A DNA stretch of 64,000 nucleotides from Halorubrum lacusprofundi ATCC 49239 (GTDB taxonomy: Archaea > Halobacteriota > Halobacteria > Halobacteriales > Haloferacaceae), in the NCBI RefSeq assembly GCF_000022205.1, contig NC_012029.1, forward strand, positions 868,001 to 932,000. The letters are read 5' to 3'. A program made the translations under genes and the position numbers. This document shows, one piece after another, positions 7,452 through 62,966 of the stretch. The notes beneath the pieces were generated by a model. That model was not told where the DNA came from. It was given only the letters and a program-made list of their open reading frames with translations, and did not search any database. Position 1 is the stretch's first letter, and every line of letters begins with the position of its first letter.

Positions 7452-7755
7452 ATGGCGGACAAGCGGGGTGGCCCGGCGTTCCGACGTGGGGTATCCCGGT
7501 TGCCTTCTCCACCCCGCGACCCGACGAGCGACGGGCGTCCGGCGGTGGGCTGCTCGCTTCCGCGCCTGACCCAGTGTCGCCGACGAACCGCGACGGACCG
7601 CTCCTGCGAGCGGGCGTCGCGGACCGCTGTCCCCGGCGGACGAGGCTTCCACGTTGGCTCTCGGGGCCCGCGCCGGTCAGACCGGACGCGCCCGCTGTTC
7701 GGTCCCCGCTAAAGACTACCTCACGGGTGACGAGCGGGGCCTAACCGCCCGACCT
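7452..7755 (-). ncRNA. ffs: Archaeal signal recognition particle (7S) RNA
   Basis: On the minus strand, positions 7572-7548 read as the SRP helix 8 signature: GTCAGG, a GGAAG tetraloop region and AGCAGCC. This is the most conserved part of SRP RNA and binds SRP54. The flanking sequence is GC-rich, has no convincing ORF and is about 300 nt long, matching archaeal 7S RNA. GGCGG near 7750 can pair with CCGCC near 7456 to close helix 1, as expected for the archaeal form. The ends are estimated from this pairing and from the upstream TATA-like element, with about 5-15 nt uncertainty. The RNA is the scaffold for co-translational membrane targeting. Confidence 0.88.
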
Positions 7756-7781
7756 AGTCCACTTCGAAGTATACGGCTCCA

Positions 7782-26466: not shown

Positions 26467-26784
26467 GCTTATAAGTGAACGACGCTGATTCGGCGACGAA
26501 CACCTCCAAAGCCCCAGCCGTCGAGGAGGCCGCACACTCGTTGCGCGCTTCAGTCGCTCACTCCGTTCGCTCCTTCCAGTGCTTACGTCGCCTGCGGCCT
26601 CCTCGACGGCTGCCCCTTTGAATCCCACCCCGCACAGCACTGCAACCGCACCTCACGCCTCCCCAGCCTCGCCGGCGCGGCGCTCAAAAGCGCCGCGCCG
26701 ACTCCCTCGCACGCGCTCCTCGCGAGCCGATGGCCCGCTCGGAGGCGCGCGCCACCGCACATCGCTTATTTTCCATTTATAAAT
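26467..26784 (+). repeat. Hairpin-cassette intergenic element, copy 1
   Basis: About 318 bp of non-coding DNA between dtdA and the exchanger gene. It begins CTTATAAGTGAACGAC and continues with the conserved block GAACACCTCCAAAGCCCCAG. Next comes a perfect 19-bp inverted repeat (26516-26534 with 26593-26611), then CGGCTGCCCCTTTGA, a block ending CCTCCCCAGCCTCGC, and a GCGGCGCT/AGCGCCGC hairpin near 26678-26697. The closing block is GCTCGGAGGCGCGCGCC followed by an AT-rich end with TTTATAAA near 26777. The same ordered end blocks occur at 43661-44035 (reversed) and 62643-62966. No protein reading frame is convincing. Confidence 0.85.
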
Positions 26785-43660: not shown

Positions 43661-44035
43661 CTTATAAATGACGTGCGGCCGGCGCGTGCCTCCGAGCGCC
43701 CTATGGGCGCGAGTAGGGAGAGACCGAAGCGCCTCGCTGTCACCGGCGCATCGCGCCGGCTGCAAGCGAGAGCTTCGCTCTCGCCCTGCCGCGAGGACGA
43801 AGCACGGCGATGCAAGCACCACAGCGAAGCTCTCTCGTCATCGCCGGAAATCGGAAATTTCCGGCTAGCAGTCAGAATCCGACGGATTCTGACGACATCA
43901 CGAGACGCCTTCGGCGTCTCGAACGACAGCGAGTCGCGCGAGTCGTCGCGGCTGGGGCTTTGGAGGCGTTCCCAGTGAGTAGACGGAGACTCACGAGATC
44001 CTCACTTACGCGTCCAATCGTCGGACCGCTTATTA
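43661..44035 (-). repeat. Hairpin-cassette intergenic element, copy 2 (reversed)
   Basis: About 375 bp between the divergent exporter and SRPBCC genes. Read on the minus strand it shows the same end blocks as copies 1 and 3: GGAACGCCTCCAAAGCCCCA at one end, and GCTCGGAGGCACGCGCC followed by a TTATAA end at the other. Internally at least six perfect hairpins occur: 43696-43710 (GCGCCC), 43743-43759 (CCGGCGC), 43766-43784 (GCGAGAGC), 43844-43864 (CCGGAAAT), 43871-43893 (GTCAGAATCC) and 43901-43921 (CGAGACGCC). Their loops are 3 nt, except 5 nt at 43844 (CGGAA). The internal set differs from the other copies. Confidence 0.85.
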
Positions 44036-44730: not shown

Positions 44731-44802
44731 GGGCTCGTAGATCAGTGGTAGATCATCCCCCTGGCACGGGGAAGGCCCGGGGTTCAAATCCCCGCGAGTC
44801 CA
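44731..44802 (+). tRNA. tRNA-Ala (GGC anticodon)
   Basis: 72 nt with a full cloverleaf. The acceptor stem is GGGCTCG/CGAGTCC with one G-U, the D stem GATC/GATC, the anticodon stem TCCCC/GGGGA with loop CTGGCAC (anticodon GGC), and the T arm CGGGG-TTCAAAT-CCCCG. The discriminator is A; CCA is not encoded. It decodes GCC and GCU. The accessory island begins directly after it, which suggests it served as an integration site in the past. Confidence 0.97.
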
Positions 44803-51603: not shown

Positions 51604-52671
51604 AGGGTGTCATAGAATAGTTCTCATAGCGTGATGACGGTGCTTCCTGGATTGTCTCCGCGTTCGTCGTTGGTGATCGCAATAACGAGACGAAGGCACA
51701 GCGCGAGGAACACTTGTGCTCGTGCGTGGACGCGGCCTCGGGCGCGAACGTGCCCGAGGCCGCAGTCCTTGACGGCGTCGTTGGTTCGTTCGACTCCACT
51801 CCGGCGGTTGTACGTCTCGTCTAGCGTCGATTGCTTCAGCTGAACGTCCTCGCTGTGTTCGTCGATGCGGGCTTCGACCCTGTACTCGATGTCTTTCGGA
51901 TCGTCGGTGTTTCGTGCGTTGTACGGAGCGACTGGCACGACCCCTGCGGCCAGCAGGTGGTCGTGCCAGCCGAGCGTGTCGTAGGCGCTGTCTCCAAGCA
52001 TCCAGATCGGTTTCTCGACGGCGAGCGCGTCACACGTGACGCGCATCGCCGTCTCCTCTGGCGCTTGCTTGCTCTCGGTGAACTCCGCGGCAATCGGGAT
52101 CTTTTGCCCGGTCGAGACGATCGTACAGCCGTAGCCGTGGTAGTACTCTTCGGCGGTTGGATCGTAGCCTTTCGACGCGTCTTGGTCGGCGGGCATCGTC
52201 CTCACGTCGGTGGAATCGATGGAGTAGGTCAAGTCGAGCAGGCCGCGGCAGGCGGCCTGCTCGACGAGGCGGTCGAAGACCTCGTCGACGACGTGTTCGA
52301 GGTCGGTGAGGAAGCGATCGACCGCGTCTCTCGACGGCGGTCGATCGAAGCCACAGCTGAGCCAGACGACCGTGTTCTGGAGTTCTCGCGTGACTGGACG
52401 GATGCCGTAGACGTTCTTGTAGTAGCAGTGCAGGAACGCTCGGAAGAGTGCTGGTGGGTGATGATCTCGTGTTCGCCCCCGGCGAGCGGGGGCGAACACA
52501 TCGAATTCTTCGAGAAAGTCGAACTCAAGATGCTCGAACAACGCGAGCGTCTCGGTCGCCATTACATTGAAGAACTCGTCGATAGAAGTCTCCTCTTGCA
52601 GGATGCTGGCGCTCGTAGACACAGTTCCAACATCCTGCGTCTTCGTGTGTGACGCTTTCTATGACACCCTC
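51604..52671 (-). mobile_element. Complete IS5-family (ISH11-type) insertion sequence, 1,068 bp
   Basis: Terminal repeats GGGTGTCATAGAA at the left are inverted at the right as TTCTATGACACCC. TGTAAAG flanks both sides (51597-51603 and 52672-52678), a 7-bp target duplication. Length, duplication size and transposase type fit the ISH11 group as I recall it; the name is an inference. The intact transposase and perfect duplication indicate recent insertion. It interrupts a receiver-histidine kinase gene. Confidence 0.9.
51624..52622 (-). CDS. IS5-family (ISH11-type) transposase
   Basis: 332 residues, GTG start. The DDE catalytic residues are visible: Asp in YSIDSTDVRTMP, Asp in LGDSAYDTLGWHDH, and Glu in VERTNDAVKDCGLGH. 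An N-terminal helical region (residues 1-110) with YYKNVYGIRPVTRELQ should bind the terminal repeats. The frame fills the element from 12 bp inside one repeat to 35 bp inside the other. It is intact, so the element may be active. It acts by cut-and-paste. Confidence 0.93.
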   Translation of the reverse strand: MSTSASILQEETSIDEFFNVMATETLALFEHLEFDFLEEFDVFAPARRGRTRDHHPPALFRAFLHCYYKNVYGIRPVTRELQNTVVWLSCGFDRPPSRDAVDRFLTDLEHVVDEVFDRLVEQAACRGLLDLTYSIDSTDVRTMPADQDASKGYDPTAEEYYHGYGCTIVSTGQKIPIAAEFTESKQAPEETAMRVTCDALAVEKPIWMLGDSAYDTLGWHDHLLAAGVVPVAPYNARNTDDPKDIEYRVEARIDEHSEDVQLKQSTLDETYNRRSGVERTNDAVKDCGLGHVRARGRVHARAQVFLALCLRLVIAITNDERGDNPGSTVITL

Positions 52672-62642: not shown

Positions 62643-62966
62643 GTTTATAAGTGGACGACTGTGGATCCGCGGAGAACACGTCCAAATTCCCAGTCGCCGG
62701 CGGCAAAGCCGCCGGCTGCCCCTTTGAGTCAACCCTAACCGCTCCGCAACCGCACCCTCACACCTCCCCAGCCTCGCGGTTCGCACTCTCCGAGCGCTCA
62801 CCGCGTCCAGCGAGAATCGAAGATTCTCTGGCAGCCGGCGCGTAGCGCCGGCGACCTCGCGCGGCGCTCTCGCCGGCGGCTTCGCCGCCGGCTGTCAGAG
62901 TGACCTTCGGTCCCTCACTACTCGCGGCCGTTTATAAACGGCCGCTCGGAGGCGCGCGCCACCGCG
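62643..62966 (+). repeat. Hairpin-cassette intergenic element, copy 3
   Basis: About 324 bp between convergent genes. It begins GTTTATAAGTGGACGAC, then GAACACGTCCAAATTCCCAG. Hairpins follow at 62696-62716 (GCCGGCGGC, loop AAA), 62812-62828 (GAGAATC, loop GAA), 62834-62852 (GCCGGCGC, loop GTA) and 62872-62892 (GCCGGCGGC, loop TTC). A 20-bp palindrome centred on TTTATAAA (62925-62944) is followed by the closing block GCTCGGAGGCGCGCGCCACC. CGGCTGCCCCTTTGA and CCTCCCCAGCCTCGC are shared with copy 1. Confidence 0.87.

Follow-up and report, generated by a model that had tools for sequence, protein, structure and literature searches.

REPINs have been treated as the sole case known among prokaryotes of an intragenomic sequence population that is stably maintained (PMC8049555), and the function of REP sequences has been argued from G.T pairing together with their placement between unidirectional or convergent genes (PMC3733652). 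In haloarchaea, the PATEs, MITEs and SMRs of Haloquadratum are classed by their transposon-like ends, the IS605-derived PATE carrying near-terminal palindromes that match IS605-type ends (PMC3119063). The family described here shares with these haloarchaeal repeats that it is non-coding, intergenic and palindrome-bearing, but it is recognised by a covarying fold across most of the class, and its closest functional analogue appears to be the bacterial REPIN/BIME population. The BOX elements of pneumococcus, which are modular intergenic repeats with fixed ends and a variable middle, resemble it in all three respects, whereas the haloarchaeal family exchanges whole stems and not one repeated middle module; we know of no sequence relation between the two. 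HEARO and omega RNAs, which are multi-copy large folded RNAs, likewise resemble it as large folded RNA-like elements encoded in many copies, but no nuclease gene lies adjacent to the copies that we read, and Rfam has no match. The family is large and apparently undescribed so far: Rfam 15 returned no family above the gathering threshold for the element and otherwise weak chance matches, and a literature search by keyword and by literal sequence found no description of it, so that neither source holds a match to a described repeat family.

The window analysed is a stretch of 64 kb (G000:C2:868001-932000) from a 3,692,576-base genome (G000) of three contigs. A previous sequence-only reading had reported at least six perfect stem-loops at 43661-44035, and a hairpin scan recovered six with the stem and loop sizes given there (Table 1). 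Only two 250-bp bins of the window, at 43750 and 62750, contain at least four hairpins with stems of at least 7 bp, all remaining bins containing at most two; the dense bin near 62750 is another copy of the family. The sequences also bear out that reading on the end blocks, which recur at 26467 and 62643 with their order kept and their orientation reversed. Within the copy at 43661-44035, the conserved fold includes the hairpin at 43696 (stem 3) and the long stem 1; the other five hairpins, at 43743, 43766, 43843, 43871 and 43901, have the appearance of exchangeable modules that were inserted. It is an atypical copy, for the middle linker retained by most others (CTGCCCCTTTGAGTCCCACCC...CCTCCCCAGCCTCG) is missing. 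The copy is flanked by a gene for an ABC transporter and one for a polyketide-cyclase-like protein; the two are divergent and each have their own promoter motifs. Elsewhere in the window, two long perfect hairpins at 52233-52265 and 52469-52499 (stems of 14 and 13 bp, 5-nt loops, about 200 bp apart) stand by sequence outside the element family, and an Rfam scan located the archaeal SRP RNA at 7453-7764 (-) and a tRNA gene at 44731-44802 (+).

Table 1. Features of the three family copies in the 64-kb window (window coordinates).
Feature	Position	Strand	Remarks
TATA-like CTTATAAATG	43661..43670	+	Right end of element, upstream of G-rich strand
Right domain (stem 3 region)	43675..43734	+	Model R1 match G000:C2:911675-911734; covariation
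GGCGCGTGCCTCCGAG block	43681-43696	+	Within right domain; inner hairpin 43696-43710
Hairpin	43696-43710		6 bp, loop 3
Exchangeable module, two adjacent hairpins and short linker	43743..43784	+	Hairpins 43743-43759, 43766-43784
Hairpin	43743-43759		7 bp, loop 3
Hairpin	43766-43784		8 bp, loop 3
Stem 1 5' arm (CCGCGAGGACGA)	43789..43800	+	G-rich strand; partial pairing with 43941-43952; stem-1 counts
Three inserted hairpins (43843-43865, 43871-43893, 43901-43921)	43843..43921	+	Apical part of stem 1
Hairpin	43843-43865		9 bp, loop 5
Hairpin	43871-43893		10 bp, loop 3
Hairpin	43901-43921		9 bp, loop 3
Stem 1 3' arm, then conserved block CGGCTGGGGCTTTGGAGGCG	43941..43968	+	Left block on - strand: CGCCTCCAAAGCCCCAGCCG
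Left TATA-bearing module, degenerate remnant	43969..44035	-	54-57 bp unit, tandem in other copies
Second copy	26468..26758	-	G-rich strand is -
Second copy, left end			Left TATA 26468-26476; left block 26501-26520
Second copy, stem 1 arms	26516-26534 and 26593-26611		
Second copy, linkers			Linker 26610-26630; linker 2 26651-26671
Second copy, right part			Stem 2 26673-26700; right domain 26699-26758
Third copy	62643..62965	-	G-rich strand is -
Third copy, left end			TATA 62643-62650; left block about 62676-62696
Third copy, stem-1 hairpin and linkers			Hairpin 62696-62716; linker 62716-62730; linker 2 62761-62776
Third copy, right part			Inserted hairpins 62812-62892; right domain 62900-62965

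Across the whole genome, there are 104 matches to the left block CACCTCCAAAGCCCCAGCCG with up to three mismatches against a single match for the reversed control pattern, so that its recurrence is not due to chance; the right block has 94 matches against 14 for the reversed pattern (up to two mismatches, this genome). A covariance model of the right domain, that is, of the right-hand hairpin (R1), finds 70 copies at E<0.01, all of them on the 2.735-Mb main chromosome and none (0/70) on the other two replicons, which make up 26% of the genome (P about 8e-10 under random placement). According to our own gene calls, 116 of 120 family copies are intergenic. As deduced from about 45 copies read in this genome, the C-rich strand begins with a left module of 54-57 bp (TTATAA, about 26 nt, CACCTCCAAAGCCCCAGCCG), which is single or repeated in tandem up to five times, and continues with stem 1 and its conserved apical part, the linker CTGCCCCTTTGAGTCCCACCC, a C/A-rich stretch with CCTCACGCCTCCCCAGCCTCG at its end, stem 2, the linker TCCCTCGCRCG, stem 3 and GCGCGCGCCACCGC, often followed by a second TTATAA. 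Tandem left modules, up to five and of exactly 54 or 57 bp, are found at G000:C2:466230-466465 (L059) and 581804-581937 (L067), where the TATA-like motif is degenerate in some inner units and the CCAAAGCCCCAG block is retained. Minimal copies, in which the left end nearly abuts the right domain and the middle domains are absent, occur at G000:C2:2504870-2504924 (L013) and 128548-128604 (L040). The element was rejected as a CRISPR array: the tandem 54-57 bp left modules (1-5 units) have no unique spacers, and a match to CRISPR-DR20 is far below threshold.

On the G-rich strand, the core reads GGYGGGACUSAAAGGGGC-[stem 1]-apical domain (GACGYAAGSACCGCAG / GAGGASCGCAGCGAGY)-[stem 1']-GGGGCUUUS; its internal loop (GGG/GGG) hardly varies, and AAAG pairs with CUUU in a helix. 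Conserved single-stranded linkers connect this core hairpin to two further stems in Halorubrum. The stems covary and the linkers remain fixed. For the class-wide core hairpin, 51 sequences drawn from three GTDB families were aligned independently with MAFFT, and the structure that was counted comes from this same alignment: 24 of 30 pairs changed on both sides, pairing is kept in 96.4% of the cells, and covariation scores 0.613 compared with 0.154 for shuffled and at most 0.084 for slid controls. The right hairpin (75 copies) has 93.9% of cells paired, 12 of 17 pairs changed on both sides and a score of 0.354 (shuffled 0.100, slid at most 0.085), although these counts lean toward the model because the alignment was fitted to it. 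Stem 1 is 90.1% Watson-Crick in 191 elements versus 71.3% with shuffled partners, and among 14 orthologs of the locus at 43661, 51-56 pairs are predicted, 28-30 of them with two-sided changes. Outside Halorubrum, stems were selected at six or more of nine matches and the shuffled control was unmatched, so that their 93.6% pairing overstates the contrast. One-mismatch stems, counted across the variable hairpins, were too few to be of use. In the core alignment (A5), both the GGG/GGG loop (columns 15-17 and 124-126) and an adjacent GGGUGGG tract are almost invariant; in principle, loop and tract might assemble into a quadruplex that has the hairpin for its loop.

The evidence bears out the sequence-only reading in that the element is modular, structured and non-coding and its stems change with compensation between fixed linkers. 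It also decides the case of chance palindromes in GC-rich intergenic DNA, which a GC content of 64% might suggest since it makes short hairpins common: linkers are identical in hundreds of copies where reversed controls are near zero, and covariation is far above both shuffled and slid controls, which together refute an origin by chance to the point of leaving it practically no probability.

Were both strands to fold, the two kinds of mismatch, G.T and A.C, would be expected in equal numbers. On the C-rich strand, A.C mismatches exceed G.T mismatches in the right hairpin (48:15), in stem 1 (87:20) and outside Halorubrum (22:5, a count less affected by stem selection than the pairing percentage), amounting to 157 to 40 in the pooled data, where sequences and not independent events are counted. 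The excess occurs at usually-G-C and usually-A-T pairs alike and is therefore not accounted for by any one mutational bias; the mismatch bias puts the wobble pairs on the G-rich strand (the + strand of the window at 43661-44035), which is thus probably the folding strand. MFE z-scores point in the same direction (-6.45 vs -3.67 for an ortholog, -7.02 vs -5.58 for the copy at 43661-44035), but fold predictions alone were rejected as a strand test as both strands beat their shuffles. The asymmetry fits RNA and single-stranded DNA alike, G.T beating A.C in DNA too, and does not separate the two. The sole sharply spaced promoter-like motif is TTATAA at a fixed 32 nt before the left block (148 modules), and its direction is that of the C-rich strand, not the G-rich one. 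On the G-rich strand, TTATAA is found 17-21 nt upstream of GGCGCG in many copies with looser spacing, and the right-end TATA-like motif is lost in some orthologs and therefore not obligatory.

Gene context was evaluated with our own codon-usage predictions, which may err, after removal of gene calls overlapping elements. Neighbouring genes are convergent at 33% of 93 Halorubrum elements compared with 18% of element-free gaps, and where the neighbours are in tandem, the flanking genes run in the direction of the C-rich strand in 33 of 46 cases and of the G-rich strand in 13. As an earlier orientation count was stronger and a smaller one showed no effect, the orientation result is provisional; the convergent excess itself is moderate. 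Such an excess would be expected if the elements were bidirectional transcription terminators or stabilisers of mRNA 3' ends between genes, and hairpins are able to terminate transcription in Haloferax volcanii (PMC7237163). We nevertheless consider this improbable: the copy at 43661-44035 lies between divergent genes with their own promoter motifs, the convergent excess is absent in the smaller sample, and terminators have no need for conserved linkers and apical loops.

The R1 model finds copies in all 53 Halorubrum genomes and in none of 118 other genomes of the same family, and the right block is present in 51 of the 53. The left block, with a maximum of 301 matches in one genome (G021), is numerous outside Halorubrum only in G227, in which the family linkers are unchanged around different stems and a different upstream region. 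By contrast, 281 of 394 genomes of the class, from 67 of 86 genera, contain the core linker, for which reversed controls gave no or almost no matches; single matches with two mismatches may be due to chance, but high counts such as 119 (G170), 95 (G227), 88 (G072) and 84 (G210) are not. The three-domain form is found in Halorubrum, G227, G072, G201 and some members of family f6, core-only hairpins in many genomes including those of genus g6, probably Haloferax, and doublets in genera g29, g10 and g61, where a hinge of about 25 nt separates the head-to-head units. Doublets outside Halorubrum (L338-L342, L413-L418) consist of two facing core hairpins with matching outer ends and are REPIN-like. 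The attribution of the element to "this lineage" by the sequence-only reading is not borne out: only the three-domain form bearing these end blocks is confined to Halorubrum, and the core hairpin extends through most of Halobacteria. Further copies in related genomes and compensated stem changes, whose absence that reading had named as refuting it, were both found. Copy number ranges from few to hundreds among species, and in copy-rich species the elements would take up some 2% of the genome, as estimated from G021 with its approximately 190 copies, each about 330 bp long. Five plasmid records have a family match, the named non-Halorubrum records with partial matches being large non-mobilizable replicons of Halobaculum, Halorussus and Haloarcula, and the phage records searched gave none. 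A viral origin was rejected: 2.9 million viral contigs contained three exact matches, none with the surrounding fold.

At 43661-44035, 19 species carry an element at the same position with different stems, and in G003, which lacks it, the two flanking genes are adjacent. The site at 62643 is occupied in several species and without the element in G023 (L213), and four compared species have no element at 26467; some element positions are polymorphic. Orthologous copies have identical linkers and different stems. Exact shared stretches of at least 60 nt occur in 1.12% of within-genome pairs versus 0.126% between genomes, about nine times as often, and such long modules common to copies within a genome indicate that stems are also exchanged. 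A two-hairpin module, GTC[GCCGGC..GCCGGC]TGNCA[GAG..CTC]GCTG, is found in both orientations and nearly always inside elements. Two-sided changes in orthologs together with shared modules imply that compensatory change and module exchange both operate, which agrees with the earlier proposal of exchanged stems, hairpin pairs being gained and swapped inside the element. The designation "mobile" from the same source fares less well and seems doubtful, as copies keep their position across species, neither secondary replicon of this genome has any, very few are found on plasmids, and phage records contain none. Nor did 200-kb colinear comparisons (G021 with G049, and G028, G043 and the window with each other) reveal a clean insertion with target duplication: they showed shared positions or wholesale-different spacers and no precise empty site, and spacers at element-free sites are diverged or replaced.

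These histories also bear on decaying non-autonomous transposons of the MITE or PATE kind, functionless and with hairpins that are relics of transposon ends. The intergenic, repeated and nested modules of variable copy number would suit such an origin, and haloarchaea harbour MITEs, PATEs and SMRs (PMC3119063). Pairing should vanish in relics, however, and the two-sided changes through which 24 of 30 core pairs were kept argue strongly against pure decay; with an identical site in 19 species, no copy on the secondary replicons of this genome and no clean empty site or target duplication in the compared loci, we regard this origin as improbable.

With REPINs, REPs and BIMEs the family has in common short palindromic units, tens to hundreds of intergenic copies and mosaic assembly, as well as doublets in some genomes, near absence from plasmids and vertical persistence (PMC8049555). 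The G.T bias in stems is shared with REPs, and G.T pairing and gene placement, from which REP function was argued, are the same two lines of evidence used here (PMC3733652). The haloarchaeal family differs in being archaeal, in a larger fold of several domains whose internal loops and linkers are conserved, in its class-wide core, in stems that differ completely among copies and in having no obligatory RAYT-type Y1 transposase. As in REPINs, its copies are many and mainly intergenic (104 left-block matches; 116/120) and are inherited vertically and not carried by plasmids (19 species; 0/70 on secondary replicons; five plasmid and no phage records), but a RAYT gene is missing from several element-rich genomes. 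In the flanks of about 90 internal hairpins, judged by eye, there is no regular GTAG/CGTC tag. The inverted doublets with a hinge in g29, g10 and g61 have matching short ends, whereas Halorubrum copies are single three-domain units whose ends have only GCGGTG..CCTCC in common, in inverted order. A Y1 transposase was rejected as the driver: several element-rich genomes (e.g. G015, G018, G028, G045) have no match to PF01797, and since some genomes with about 70-100 copies have no Y1 transposase, the RAYT type is unnecessary for high copy number. At L222 (G036), toward the far side of the spacer, a transposase-like gene is followed by ATCAAAGCCCTACCC...GGGTAGGGTAGTT, which bears a faint likeness to the core end AAAGCCCC..GGGGCTTT.

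The likeness could go further, to a REPIN-like DNA element whose hairpin is recognised and copied as single-stranded DNA by a putative ssDNA-acting enzyme and has no role as RNA. The head-to-head doublets of several genomes, whose hinge measures about 25 nt and whose ends match (GAACAGCCAGAAAGCCCC / GGGGCTTTCTGGCTGTTC), the occurrence of two-hairpin modules in either orientation and high extragenic copy number would be in keeping with this, as would the very low presence in plasmids and viruses, which is also seen for bacterial REPINs (PMC8049555). Genomes that lack a Y1 transposase and yet have about 70-100 copies tell against it, and fixed internal-loop sequences and a three-domain fold exceed what a recognition hairpin needs; we consider it unlikely, if by no means negligible.

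On balance, we think it probable, by a modest measure, that the locus belongs to an old population of intergenic repeats, passed on vertically across the haloarchaea, whose G-rich strand acts as a structured RNA. From the sequences we infer RNA rather than single-stranded DNA, and in the best reading the population works like REPINs and BIMEs, with a high copy number that is independent of a RAYT-type Y1 transposase. The G-rich strand would act as a structured RNA, which a protein would probably bind through the core hairpin. New copies would arise rarely, by some copying mechanism; recombination or gene conversion between the conserved linkers would swap whole stems and two-hairpin modules among copies, and selection for the fold would maintain stem pairing. 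Against this structured-RNA reading stands that the G-rich strand has no sharply spaced promoter-like motif, that the fixed TTATAA points in the C-rich direction and that tandem genes run more often with the C-rich strand (33 to 13). A purely functional gene would not show such a range of copy numbers and such polymorphic positions.

More tentatively, and with somewhat less than even confidence, the family may represent an undescribed class of structured RNAs ancestral to most of Halobacteria, kept in up to several hundred copies that are inherited vertically and preserve the fold despite continual replacement of their stems, and thereby an archaeal counterpart of REPINs that has no RAYT-type transposase. 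With a second, archaeal population that has a larger and strongly covarying fold, the question why such populations persist becomes testable, for which Haloferax with few copies and Halorubrum with many are tractable hosts, and the class-wide core with its nearly invariant GGG/GGG loop provides a concrete target in the search for a binding protein or an RNA function.
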